A stretch of DNA of 64,000 nucleotides, taken from NCBI RefSeq assembly GCF_001787335.1, contig NZ_CP014674.1, positions 566,501-630,500 of the forward strand. The letters are read 5' to 3'. The position numbers and the translations under genes were made by a program. Positions within the stretch are counted from its first letter, which is position 1. Each line of letters begins with the position of its first letter. Origin of the DNA: Kozakia baliensis. GTDB taxonomy: Bacteria; Pseudomonadota; Alphaproteobacteria; Acetobacterales; Acetobacteraceae. Below the pieces are notes generated by a model that was given only the letters and a program-made list of their open reading frames with translations, had not been told where the DNA came from and searched no databases. Positions 42,937-48,168 of this stretch are shown piece after piece.

Positions 42937-45900
42937 TTAGAAAGCGCGCTTGAAGTAGGACTGCAACGGCGCGACGCCGAGTTCGCCGTCCTTCATCGCG
43001 GAAATGGCGTAGATCGCCGCACGCGCCCCGGCCAGCGTGGTAAAGTGCGGCACGCCGCCAAGCAATGACGAACGGCGGATATCGAAGCTGTCTCGCACCG
43101 CCTGCGCACCCTGCGCCGTGTTGATCACCATCTGCACATCTCCAGAGCGGATGGCGTCCACGCAATGCGGGCGGCCTTCCAGCACCTTGTTCACGCGTTT
43201 GACGGTAATGCCCGCTTCCTCAAGTCGTGCCGCCGTGCCGCGTGTAGCCATGATGGAGAAGCCCATCTCGATCAGCTTGCGGCCGAGCGCCGCCACCTGA
43301 GACTTATGCCCGTCGCGCACTGAGAGCAGTACGGTGCCGGATTGCGGCAGCTTTACCCCCGCCGCGAGTTGAGACTTGGCGAAAGCGCGCTCGAAGCTGC
43401 TGTCCAGCCCGATCACTTCGCCGGTCGAGCGCATTTCCGGGCCGAGGATGGTGTCCGTATCCGCGAAGCGGTGGAACGGGAACACGGCTTCTTTCACCGC
43501 GACATGCGGCGCGATTGCATCGCCATCCAGCTTGAATTCGGAAAGCTTCGCACCGGCCATGACGCGTGCGCCGATCTTCGCCACCGGAACGCCCGTCGCC
43601 TTCGCCACGAACGGCACGGTGCGGGAAGCGCGTGGGTTCACTTCCAGCACGAATACTTCGCTGTCCTTGATCGCGTATTGCACGTTCATCAGCCCGACGA
43701 TGCCGAGTTCGCGCGCCATGGCTTCCGTCTGCGCTTTCAGTTCCGTCACGATGGCGGGCGAAAGCGTGTAGGGCGGAAGCGAGCAGGCGGAGTCGCCCGA
43801 GTGAATCCCGGCTTCCTCGATATGCTCCATCACGCCCGCAACATAGACATCCTTGCCGTCGGAAATGCAGTCCACGTCGGCTTCGATGGCGTCGTTGAGG
43901 TAATGATCCAGCAAGATCGGACCGGAGGAGACTTCCGCGCCCGCAAGCTGAAGCGTGCTGCGGATGTAGCGTTGCAGCCCGGCGCGGTCATGCACGATCT
44001 CCATCGCGCGGCCGCCAAGCACATAGGACGGGCGAACGACCACGGGATAACCGACGCGCTCGGCAATGGCTTCGGCTTCGCTAGGATTGCGGGCGATGCC
44101 GTTTTCCGGCTGAAGCAGACCGAGCTTGCGCAGTAGAGCCTGGAAGCGCTCACGGTCCTCGGCGCGGTCGATGGCATCGGCAGGCGTGCCAAGCAGGGGA
44201 ATGCCTGCGGCTTCGAGCGCGCGGGAGAGCTTGAGCGGGGTTTGGCCACCATATTGAACGATGCAGCCCAGAACCTCGCCGCCTGCCTGTTCGGTGCGGA
44301 TCAGACTAATGACGTCCTCATCCGTCAGCGGCTCGAAATAAAGCCGGTCGGAAGTGTCGTAATCGGTCGAGACGGTTTCGGGATTGCAGTTGACCATTAC
44401 CGTCTCGAACCCGGCTTCGCGCAGGGCATAGGCGGCATGAACACAGCAATAATCGAACTCGATGCCCTGGCCGATGCGGTTCGGGCCACCGCCGAGGATG
44501 ACGATCTTCTTGCGGTCGGTCGGCCGGCTTTCGCATTCCGGCGTGCCGAACCCGCCCTCATAGGTGGAATAAAGATACGGCGTGTCGGAAGCGAATTCGC
44601 CCGCGCAGGTATCGATGCGCTTATAGGCCGGGGTCACGCCCAGCTTCGCGCGCAAAGCCGCTACGTCTTCCGGCTTCTGATCCGTCAAGCGCGCAAGCTG
44701 ACGGTCCGAGAAGCCGAGCGCCTTGATGCGGCGCAGATCGCGCGCGGTATGCGGCAAACCATTCGCGGCGATGTCGTTTTCCGCCACCACGATATCGTGC
44801 AACTGGTGCAGGAACCATGGCTCGAAACGGCAGGCGGCGTTGATGTCTTCCAGCGTCAGCCCGGCGCGCATGGCCTGAGCGGCCATAAGAATGCGCTCGG
44901 GGCGCGGTTCGGACAGGGCGGCGCGATATGCGTCGAGCGAGCCGTCGCCCGGGGCCTCCACCGGATCGAGACCGTTCAACCCCGTCTCCATCGAGCGCAG
45001 TCCCTTCTGGAGCGCCTCGGCGAAGGAGCGTCCCACCGACATTGCTTCACCGACCGATTTCATGGACGTCGAAAGCAGTGCAGGCGCGCCAGGGAATTTT
45101 TCGAAGGTGAAGCGCGGAATCTTCACCACGACATAATCGATGGTGGGCTCGAAGCTGGCGGGCGTGGTTTGCGTGATGTCGTTCTTGAGTTCGTCCAGCG
45201 TATAGCCGACGGCCAGCTTCGCCGCGATTTTCGCGATCGGGAAACCCGTCGCTTTGGAAGCCAGCGCGGAGGAACGCGAAACACGCGGGTTCATCTCGAT
45301 GACGACCATGCGGCCATCTTCGGGATTGATGCCGAACTGCACGTTGGAGCCGCCCGTTTCCACGCCGATCTTGCGCAAACACGCGATCGAAGCGTCGCGC
45401 ATGCGCTGATATTCCTTGTCGGTCAGCGTCATGGCGGGGGCGACGGTGATGGAGTCGCCCGTATGGACACCCATCGGATCAATATTCTCGATGGAACAGA
45501 TAATGATGCAATTGTCCGCCTTATCGCGGACGACTTCCATCTCATATTCCTTCCAGCCGAGTACGGATTCTTCGATCAGCACTTCGGTGGTGGGGGAGGC
45601 ATCAAGGCCGCCGAGAACGATCTGATCGAATTCCTCGCGGTTATAGGCGATGCCGCCGCCCGCGCCGCCCATGGTGAAGGAAGGGCGGATAATGGCGGGC
45701 AGACCCACCTCGGCGAGCGCCGTGCGAGCTTCGTCGAGCGTATGGGCGATGGCGCTGCGCGGGCTTTCGATGCCGATCTCGTCCATGGCCTCCCGGAACT
45801 TCTGCCGGTCTTCCGCGCGGTCGATCACCTCCGCGTCCGCACCGATCAGTTCCACGCCATGCTTCTTCAAGAAGCCGGATTTATCGAGCGCCATGGCAGC

Positions 45901-46191
45901 GTTCAGCGCGGTTTGGCCGCCCATGGTAGGCAGAACGGCGTCGGGCTTTTCCTTGAGGATGATGCTCTCGACGAATTCCGGCGTGATCGGCTCGACATAG
46001 GTGGCGTCGGCCAGTCCGGGATCGGTCATGATCGTAGCCGGGTTGGAGTTGATGAGGATGACGCGGTAGCCTTCCTCCTTCAACGCCTTGCACGCCTGGG
46101 TGCCCGAATAGTCGAACTCGCAAGCCTGTCCGATGACGATAGGGCCAGCGCCGATGATGAGGATTGACTGGATATCTGTGCGTTTGGGCAT
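42937..46191 (-). CDS. carB: carbamoyl-phosphate synthase large subunit
   Basis: Uses ammonia from CarA, bicarbonate and two ATP to make carbamoyl phosphate for arginine and pyrimidines. 1084 residues: two homologous ATP-grasp halves (first [19 protein letters not shown], second [17 protein letters not shown]), an oligomerisation region in between, and a C-terminal methylglyoxal-synthase-like allosteric domain (~940-1084). Normal length, no disruption. It starts three bases after the carA stop and is followed by greA after 256 bases. Confidence 0.97.
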
Positions 46192-46194
46192 GAT

Positions 46195-47562
46195 TCAGGC
46201 GGCCTTCTTGTCCATGAGGGCGACGAAGCGCTCGAAAAGGTAAAAGCTGTCGGACGGTCCAGGGCTGGCCTCGGGATGGTATTGCACCGAGAAAGCATCG
46301 TAACGGGTGCTACGGATGCCTTCGTTGGAACCGTCGAACAGGCTGGTATGGGTGATCTTCACATCGTCCGGCAGGGATTGGTCATCCACCGCGAAGCCGT
46401 GATTCTGACTGGTGATCTCGACGCGACCAGTGGAGAGATCCTTCACCGGTTGGTTGGCGCCGCGATGGCCGCGTTCCAATTTATAAGTGCGAGCGCCAAG
46501 GGCTTGCGCGAGAAGCTGGTGGCCGAGGCAGATGCCGAACACGGGGATATTGGCTTCCAACACGCCTTTGATGGCGGGAACGGCATAAACCGCCGTGGCC
46601 GCCGGATCGCCCGGGCCGTTGGAGAGGAAAACGCCTTCTGGCTTATGGCGCAGAATTTCTTCCGTCGTAGCGGTGGCGGGCACGACCGTGACCTCGCATC
46701 CCGCCGTGACGAGGCAGCGCAGGATATTGCGTTTCGCACCGTAATCGACGGCAACGACGCGGCGTTTGACGGGGCGGGCAGGGTCAGGCTTTTGCCAAAC
46801 GCCGAGGTCCCACTGAAAGCTTTGCGCGCAGGTGACGTCTTTCGCGAGATCCATGCCTTCGAGACCGGCCCAGTTCTTGGCCTGCGCCTTGAGCGCGTCG
46901 ATATCGAACACGCCATCCGAAGGGTAGGCCAGCACCGTGCTCTGCGGGCCGTCATCACGCAGGCGGCGGGTGATCTGGCGCGTGTCGATGGCGGAAATGC
47001 CGGGAAGATCGTGGCGCTTCATCCAATCCGAGAACGGTGCGGAGGAGCGCCAGTTGGCGGGGGCGGTAACATCTTCCTTCACGACCGCGCCGCGTGCGGC
47101 GACGCGCGGTGCTTCGTCATCTTCCGCATTCGAGCCGACATTGCCGATATGCGGGAAGGTGAAGGTGACGATCTGGCCGGCGAAGGACGGGTCCGTCAGC
47201 GTTTCCTGATAGCCCGTCATACCGGTGTTGAAGCAGAGTTCGCCAACGGATTTTCCGGTGGTGTGCGCACCGAAGCCGCGTCCCCACAGGACCGTGCCAT
47301 CGGCGAGAACGAGCGCGGCGGTGGCGCCATCGGGACGAGCGTCGGTCACGTCGTGGTTTTCCTTCTGGGAGGTGGGCGCATGAGGCGCTTCTGGGTTAAG
47401 ATCATGCAGCGCAATGCCGGGCTGGCGCAGGAGGGCGGCCCAATGTTTGGCGGGAATGGTGCGGGATTGCCGCCATTTGCGAATGGCTTCGGTGCCGACG
47501 CCGGTTAGGGCGGCAAGTTGATCCGCCCCTCCCGCCTTTGCAATGATGTCTTCAATATCCAT
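46195..47562 (-). CDS. carA: carbamoyl-phosphate synthase small subunit with N-terminal helix-turn-helix extension
   Basis: Glutaminase subunit of carbamoyl-phosphate synthase. From the ATG at 47562 (GAGAGGGA just upstream) it has 455 residues. Residues 1-~55 (MDIEDIIAKAGGADQLAALT... IRKWRQSRTIPAKHW) look like a YdaS/Cro-type DNA-binding helix-turn-helix. A linker (~56-71) leads into ordinary CarA (LVLADGTVLWGRGF, then SQNHGFAVDD). The triad is Cys345 (GICLGHQ), His429 and Glu431 (YHPE). A second possible start, GTG at 47349 with AGAAGGAAA upstream, would yield a 384-residue protein of standard length. So both a fusion and a plain CarA may be made. carB follows three bases downstream. Two palindromes lie in the upstream spacer. 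Confidence 0.92.
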   Translation of the reverse strand: MDIEDIIAKAGGADQLAALTGVGTEAIRKWRQSRTIPAKHWAALLRQPGIALHDLNPEAPHAPTSQKENHDVTDARPDGATAALVLADGTVLWGRGFGAHTTGKSVGELCFNTGMTGYQETLTDPSFAGQIVTFTFPHIGNVGSNAEDDEAPRVAARGAVVKEDVTAPANWRSSAPFSDWMKRHDLPGISAIDTRQITRRLRDDGPQSTVLAYPSDGVFDIDALKAQAKNWAGLEGMDLAKDVTCAQSFQWDLGVWQKPDPARPVKRRVVAVDYGAKRNILRCLVTAGCEVTVVPATATTEEILRHKPEGVFLSNGPGDPAATAVYAVPAIKGVLEANIPVFGICLGHQLLAQALGARTYKLERGHRGANQPVKDLSTGRVEITSQNHGFAVDDQSLPDDVKITHTSLFDGSNEGIRSTRYDAFSVQYHPEASPGPSDSFYLFERFVALMDKKAA

Positions 47563-47619
47563 TTGGCGTTCCCTCTCGGATGCGCGATTGGTTGGTGCTA
47601 GATAGTCGTTTGACGCGCG

Positions 47620-47640
47620 GATGGGAAGTTTTTTCCCATC
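47620..47640. promoter_or_regulatory. palindrome 1, candidate carA operator
   Basis: TGGGAAGTTTTTTCCCA (47622-47638): six-base arms around a five-base spacer, extended here by two more pairs to GATGGGAA/TTCCCATC. On the minus strand its TTCCCA, 17 bases and TATCTA resemble a weak carA promoter, so a bound protein could block the -35 region. Confidence 0.6.
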
Positions 47641-47663
47641 TTTGCAAAGGCGGATCGAAGGGC

Positions 47664-47680
47664 TGGGAAGTTTTTTCCCA
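47664..47680. promoter_or_regulatory. palindrome 2, identical copy
   Basis: The same 17 bases as palindrome 1. Centres are 42 bp apart (four helical turns), so both sites face the same side of the DNA. It lies 36 bases before the yqeY start. Confidence 0.6.
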
Positions 47681-47715
47681 AGTTCCTTGTCGTGGTCCGC
47701 AAAGAGGAGAGAGCA

Positions 47716-48168
47716 ATGTCCCTGAGAGAACAGATTTCCGCCGATCTGAAGACCGCCATGAAAGCCAAGGAAATGGACCGCGTGGCGCAGATTCGTGGCA
47801 TCACGGCGAAGATCAAGGATCTCGACGTGGCGGCGCGCGCCAAGGGCGGCGAGATCGGCGATGCGGATATCGTTCCGATGCTTCGAAGCATGATCAAATC
47901 CCGCACCGAATCGGCCACGATGTATCGCGATGGCGGTCGTCCGGAACTGGCCGAGAAAGAGGAGGCGGAAATCACGACGATCAAATCCTACCTTCCGCCG
48001 GAGATGGATGATGCGGCGCTTGAAACGGCCATCAATGAAGCTGTGGCCGAAACCGGCGCGTCCAGCATGAAGGATATGGGCAAGGTGATGGGCGTTCTGA
48101 AAGCCCGTTTTGGCGCATCGCTCGATATGGGTCGTGTGAACGGCGTGGTGAAGGCCAAGCTGTCCTGA
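47716..48168 (+). CDS. GatB/YqeY domain-containing protein
   Basis: 150 residues of the YqeY family (helical, related to the tRNA-binding tail of GatB), starting MSLREQISADLKTAMKAKE at an ATG with AGGAGAG upstream. The middle has PMLRSMIKSRTESATMY and the end AETGASSMKDMGKVMGVLKA, the known signature. A role in tRNA-related metabolism is assumed for the family but unproven. It is divergent from carA, five bases before dnaG, and likely co-transcribed with dnaG and perhaps rpoD. Confidence 0.92.
   Translation: MSLREQISADLKTAMKAKEMDRVAQIRGITAKIKDLDVAARAKGGEIGDADIVPMLRSMIKSRTESATMYRDGGRPELAEKEEAEITTIKSYLPPEMDDAALETAINEAVAETGASSMKDMGKVMGVLKARFGASLDMGRVNGVVKAKLS

Follow-up and report, generated by a model that had tools for sequence, protein, structure and literature searches.

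The analysed window, a stretch of 64,000 nucleotides from Kozakia baliensis, contains a carA gene whose product carries an additional N-terminal domain, here called the head, joined to the enzyme by a linker that is disordered in the structure model (Table 1). We refer to the gene as HTH-carA (HTH, helix-turn-helix). The divergent neighbour is presumably yqeY, the name used in the earlier note.

Table 1. Features of the HTH-carA region, in window coordinates
Feature	Position	Strand	Basis
carB, 3 bp downstream of carA, presumably one operon	42937..46191	-	used as query
HTH-carA, 455 aa, carbamoyl-phosphate synthase small subunit	46195..47562	-	TIGR01368 442.6 bits, cut-off 307
Linker, residues 57-81, low model confidence	47320..47394	-	pLDDT <50 at residues 58-73
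Internal GTG, codon 72, possible start of head-less CarA	47347..47349	-	duplex -4.0
Internal Shine-Dalgarno-like AGAAGGA	47360..47366	-	read from sequence
Cro-like HTH domain of CarA, residues 1-56	47395..47562	-	NF046037 60.8 bits and structure model
Shine-Dalgarno-like GAGAGGG of HTH-carA	47571..47577	-	sequence; predicted anti-Shine-Dalgarno duplex -6.3 kcal/mol
Proposed -10 element TATCTA, 17 bp after TTCCCA	47599..47604	-	sequence and type B profile
Proposed -35, TTCCCA, right arm of proximal operator	47622..47627	-	inferred from type B profile; non-consensus
carA-proximal operator (putative), TGGGAA-N5-TTCCCA	47622..47638 (8-bp arms, 47620-47640)	none	sequence, genome search and orthologous sites
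Distal operator (putative), identical 17-mer, between proximal operator and yqeY	47664..47680	none	second sites in 92/139 orthologous loci
yqeY, divergent neighbour of carA	47716..48168	+	name from the earlier note

The enzyme part of the protein is intact, scoring above the TIGR01368 cut-off, and residues C345, H429 and E431 are invariant in 34 of 34 sequences. C345 and H429 stand at a common offset (76) from Cys-269 and His-353 of the E. coli enzyme, residues that are named in the accessible portion of PMC6245113. The N-terminal 54-residue domain belongs to the NCBIfam family NF046037, 'carph-isopro', with 60.8 bits for the whole protein and 66.5 bits for the head alone against a curated cut-off of 38. 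Gathering cut-offs were not met for Pfam YdaS_toxin (PF15943; 26.6 bits, cut-off 30) or P22_Cro (PF14549; 19.5 bits, cut-off 30.2). AlphaFold2 models the head as a four-helix HTH (pLDDT 81) with the recognition helix at residues 24-33, and the solved fold nearest to this model is Xfaso 1 Cro (3bd1; VIA Z 8.4, rmsd 2.0 over 59 residues; Foldseek E 0.03). The resemblance is one of modelled fold and not a significant sequence-structure match. The head evolves under purifying selection, with a median dN/dS of 0.34 over 5943 close pairs, a value raised by saturation. A search for plasmid relatives of the head gave no match, and the phage relatives amounted to 10 weak matches, some with repressor annotation. 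The protein thus meets the trigger-enzyme criteria of an intact enzyme domain and of a DNA-binding-type domain on the same polypeptide, the latter by an open frame running through head and CarA, with binding itself inferred.

The spacer between the starts of HTH-carA and yqeY, 151 bp long, contains TGGGAAGTTTTTTCCCA twice, at a start-to-start distance of 42 bp. The earlier note had described two identical 17-bp palindromes, six-base inverted repeats of which the first extends to eight, and the sequence bears this out: the proximal palindrome has arms of 8 bp and the second has arms of 6 bp. The genome-wide search that the note had proposed returned exactly these two sites for TGGGAA-N5-TTCCCA in the whole genome (3,505,604 bases), both in the carA-yqeY spacer, and the backwards-read control pattern had 0 exact matches in the same genome. 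When two mismatches are allowed the motif becomes unremarkable, with 4 matches in the window against 2.08 expected and 133 in the genome against 50 for the reversed control (a single additional site has one mismatch); the signal is therefore the exact pair. Further regulon sites in the genome were considered and rejected, because the two-mismatch matches resemble background.

Across the family, a head above the NF046037 cut-off was found in 142 of 150 Acetobacteraceae genomes and was fused to CarA in 141 of these. We analysed 139 HTH-carA loci from the other genomes; the remaining two of the 141 are G000 and G009, and the G009 locus (L130), although outside the count, has the site pair. The loci derive from 143 fetched matches, 136 of which were classed as CarA-fused by script, three by eye (L196, L235 and L240) and four as not CarA-fused; those counted include L235, with a frame change after the head, and L240, a contig copy with head and linker only. 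By a criterion of at most 2/12 mismatches within 260 bp upstream, at least one site is present in 131 of the 139 loci, so that the lack of conservation by which the earlier note could have been refuted was not observed. A site with no more than one mismatch precedes 124 of the genes, and at least two sites are found in 92, leaving 47 with one or none; several of the eight loci without a site have CCGGAA-type arms. The reversed pattern was found upstream in only 1 of 136 HTH-carA loci. Among the named loci, 31 of 36 HTH-carA genes have a site with at most one mismatch, versus 0 of 44 head-less carA loci, mostly from Sphingomonadales and other alphaproteobacteria (one of them, L075, offers just 172 bp of upstream sequence). 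A divergent yqeY lies within 700 bp in 41 of these 44 loci, as in the window, so the sites follow the head and not carA or yqeY. The site is also kept in all four fused loci that lack a near divergent yqeY.

Within the family, carA of genus g29 (G028 and G115) has no head at its start, and its upstream region shows no site even at three or fewer mismatches. Eight family genomes have no head match; a whole head-less carA is present only in that of G028, the others having a cut carA or no clear one. G115, the one genome of the 142 in which the match is not fused to CarA, has a head-less CarA and encodes a separate 82-aa protein (L312) that matches NF046037 with a sequence unlike that of the CarA head. 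Exact sites number 130 across the 139 genomes, and 107 of them lie upstream of HTH-carA. Eleven of the remaining 23 belong to one dispersed repeat element in G071 (for example, L329-L334), and we rejected these as regulatory sites, as the repeat happens to contain TGGGAA-N5-TTCCCA. A possible dependence of the second operator base on residue 32 of the head was likewise not accepted. Sites are of the G type in 115 of 129 loci with Q at residue 32 and in 1 of 8 with S, A or T (Fisher 5e-6), but on the tree there are 6 changes and 5 independent pairs, of which 1 is on supported branches; with 5 rows left out of this test, the link is not independent of descent and is kept as a lead only.

In our view the two palindromes probably serve the carA promoter as operators to which CarA's own head binds, making HTH-CarA a single-target autorepressor, with both binding and repression inferred. 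The earlier note had named the HTH fused to CarA as the obvious candidate ligand, and the association of sites with the head, including their joint loss, lends support to that proposal. One could instead envision that the palindromes are bound by a regulator of pyrimidine or arginine genes that is not linked to CarA, and that the head has some other role. carA is a usual target of such regulators, and binding by the head has not been demonstrated; however, an unlinked regulator does not readily explain why the only two exact sites of the genome are both at carA, why so large a share of the exact sites elsewhere lies at HTH-carA, or why the sites follow the head. The earlier note had offered an unrelated pyrimidine or arginine regulator as the alternative, and an arginine regulator of the ArgR type finds no candidate: ArgR (PF01316) was detected in 0 of 20 genomes, the window's own and 19 relatives, with 9 of 14 control genomes positive, and regulation of carAB through ArgR and ARG boxes thus fails on the presence of ArgR. 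A search for PyrR-like proteins with PF00156 gave unspecific matches. We think that an unlinked regulator is improbable.

The placement of the sites relative to the predicted promoter falls into two plans. Type A comprises 82 loci, in which 11-15 bp separate the end of the proximal site from the ATG and the site fills a 17-bp spacer between putative -35 and -10 elements. TTG is found at -6 of the proximal site in 74 of the 82 loci (background 1.4%) and at 0 of 57 distal sites, and A occupies the second base of the -10-like hexamer after the proximal site in 75 of 82 (background 19%), giving the layout TTGnnn - 17-bp operator - TANNNN. This putative promoter fits the Gluconobacter motif of PMC5756330, in which a -35 of ttGnnn occurs in 72% and the -10, nAtnnn, is weak; the passages of that source available to us do not mention carA. 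Because the type A ATG lies near the expected start of transcription, these mRNAs look leaderless, and the first start has little Shine-Dalgarno complementarity (8.7% of 80 starts reach -5 kcal/mol or better). The other plan, that of the window, is represented by 38 loci (type B), 24 of which have TA 17 bp after the TTCCCA arm (background 2%), and here the operator is inferred to overlap the -35 position. A consensus promoter scan of positions 47450-47800 found no promoter. Judged by the type A and B profiles, the palindromes do sit on the predicted carA promoter, where the earlier note had expected one.

The spacing between paired sites varies. The 42 bp between centres in the window is correct, but the earlier note's reading of it as four helical turns does not hold as a rule: the other genomes provide 90 pairs, with a spacing of 37-40 bp in 68 (modes 39 and 38) and of 41-44 bp in nine (one at exactly 42), the others being at 33, 36, 48-50, 55 and 82 bp. 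Four exact turns are a local fact, and the spacing is not phase-locked. In several type A loci (for example, L171, L190 and L230), a conserved sequence resembling CCCTCTA-TATAGGG lies between yqeY and the distal operator and is perhaps a yqeY promoter.

Both promoter plans suit repression best. The possibility that binding of the head to the sites activates carA, or that the head plays a dual part, draws on the type B arrangement, in which the site overlaps a poor -35, and on the centre of the distal type A site, which by our reckoning lies near -61, a known activator position. Against this, type A has a normal promoter (TTG, 17 bp, TA) with the site inside the spacer, where a bound dimer should block, and activation seems to us no more credible than an unlinked regulator. 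A role of the palindromes for yqeY, or for both divergent genes, is suggested by the distal site being closer to yqeY, but the 41 head-less loci with the same divergent neighbour and no site, together with the four fused loci that have the site without that neighbour, make this very unlikely. A terminator, a repeat element or chance can hardly be entertained: the distal site gives one terminator-like match, where shuffled sequences lead one to expect 0.3, but it lies between two divergent gene starts and has no Rfam match, and the conservation with the head and the control counts have already refuted this reading in the main. An RNA leader was also rejected, there being no Rfam match and a fold no better than that of shuffles.

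Autorepression by HTH-CarA could operate as follows. Dimers of the Cro-like head would bind each palindrome, and the proximal dimer would block RNA polymerase, its site being the -35/-10 spacer in most relatives and overlapping the -35 in the window. Repression would cover carA and, where it is co-transcribed as in the window, carB; the distal site presumably assists by cooperative binding. Comparison of the genomes establishes the conservation of the sites, their link with the head, their loss with it and their place in the predicted promoter, and from these the binding, the effector and the sign of control are inferred in the absence of binding or expression data. As to the signal, our first guess, a conjecture, is that the assembly state is sensed, that is, free CarA or alpha-beta as opposed to oligomers. 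In the presence of UMP the E. coli enzyme is an alpha-beta unit, and ornithine makes it tetrameric, according to the portion of PMC6245113 available, and because its assembly shifts with these ligands, pairing of the heads could conceivably report the pyrimidine and arginine state.

A second isoform of CarA may also be produced. An in-frame ATG lies between head and enzyme in 98 of 132 loci (132 of the 136 entered this analysis), and some of the 34 without it have GTG or TTG. At the best internal ATG, Shine-Dalgarno pairing reaches at least -5 kcal/mol in 56% of cases, versus 12% at other linker codons, a fraction slightly favoured by picking the best ATG per locus. The ribosome-binding site at the internal start suggests two isoforms, and the internal start is common, not universal, among HTH-carA loci.

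The head is not confined to CarA. Fusion to CarA outside Acetobacteraceae was seen in none of 44 loci examined (28 + 16; judged by eye or, for 19, by family search), and in other alphaproteobacteria the head is joined to Nnr (NAD(P)H-hydrate epimerase/dehydratase), Ccr (crotonyl-CoA carboxylase/reductase), HisZ-like proteins, PyrB (aspartate carbamoyltransferase), ArgB (acetylglutamate kinase), PDH E1 alpha and SerA (phosphoglycerate dehydrogenase). The loci with such fusions are L161, L168/L335-L337, L355-L361, L372 and L373-L387. The enzymes were recognised with Pfam and NCBIfam; HisZ scores under the NCBIfam cut-offs in two of three cases, and some fusion heads fall slightly under that of NF046037. 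The head also stands at the N-terminus of Mitofilin-like or Mitofilin-domain alphaproteobacterial proteins in 4 of 9 searched (L118, L143, L146 and L170).

Of 18 genomes in the order to which G321 belongs, 15 have a head match (6 above the cut-off). The matches lie in frames of 454-466 aa, like the two identified HisZ fusions, and are counted here as HTH-HisZ. All 15 loci have two 17-bp palindromes, ATTCAT-N5-ATGAAT with at most two mismatches, 39 bp apart in every case, and the reversed control gave 0 of 15. Every one of the 15 has TTG 15 bp before the proximal palindrome, and TATATG follows at 17 bp. Since the loci represent three genera of one family and six are nearly identical, there are fewer than 15 independent cases. 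By its sequence layout, HTH-HisZ is an independent replica of the HTH-CarA geometry (6-5-6 sites about 39 bp apart in a putative promoter beside the start), with different arms. Among the other enzyme fusions, 5 of 10 (two of them HisZ) show a perfect match to the 6-5-6 form at a distance of up to 130 bp, with 0.70 expected in total from shuffles. A loop of 3 also yields 6 such palindromes in 4 loci, and 6-5-6 sites at fusions beyond HisZ are therefore a lead only. The Ccr fusion has no exact site by the 6-5-6 criterion; a repeat, CGTCAA...TTGACG, seen by eye only, is common to two upstream regions. G261 carries two head fusions, PyrB (L361) and Nnr (L161), and both are preceded by an exact 6-5-6 palindrome, a different one for each. 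Upstream of the ArgB fusion (L360) lies TTTACTAAAAAAGTAAT, with one mismatch, and by eye TTGACA and TAAATT with a partial palindrome between them, much like type A.

One hypothesis, which we put forward tentatively and would not yet bet on, is that a modular Cro-like head has been grafted repeatedly onto alphaproteobacterial enzymes that act as control points (CarA, HisZ, PyrB, ArgB, SerA, Nnr, Ccr and PDH E1 alpha). Each enzyme would thereby repress a single target, its own gene, by way of paired 17-bp operators of the 6-5-6 form spaced at about 39 bp. The assembly state would be the sensor, and for CarA an internal start would let one mRNA also yield enzyme that lacks the head. A head that is indeed modular would offer a short natural route to a self-controlled enzyme, the operator arms differing from one fusion to another. 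Autorepression by HTH-CarA, if true, would explain the control of carbamoyl-phosphate synthesis in a whole ArgR-less family, the enzyme being its own repressor; the exact operators and the HTH-HisZ replica are testable objects.

We found no report of the function or operator of the HTH-CarA fusion in the literature (subscription journals were mostly uncovered), no paper using the name carph-isopro and no operator described for NF046037. The CarA head is a clear member of that family, whose name gives no function. Phage Cro repressors have short palindromic operators inside promoters. The head has its modelled fold in common with those of Xfaso 1 (3bd1), P22 and N15, but it scores below the Pfam P22_Cro and YdaS cut-offs and has no phage context. 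HTH-CarA is best explained as a new variant of trigger enzyme, its DNA binding and effect on transcription resting on comparative evidence alone. As far as the available part of PMC8249747 goes, PutA, BirA and NadR are trigger enzymes that each carry a DNA-binding domain and, like HTH-CarA with its inferred binding, combine enzyme and transcription factor on one polypeptide; PutA, as we propose for HTH-CarA, has a single target and binds between divergent genes, its own among them. HTH-CarA differs from all three in its enzyme and in its DNA-binding domain, and its effector and direction of control are not known. Enzymes also regulate carAB in E. coli, where PepA and PyrH act on the P1 promoter, a parallel to the proposed role of HTH-CarA (PMC6245113, seen in part). 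PepA and PyrH are unlinked and without a dedicated head, and PepA wraps about 230 bp, whereas HTH-CarA is the carA product itself, equipped with a head, in a setting where ArgR is absent.
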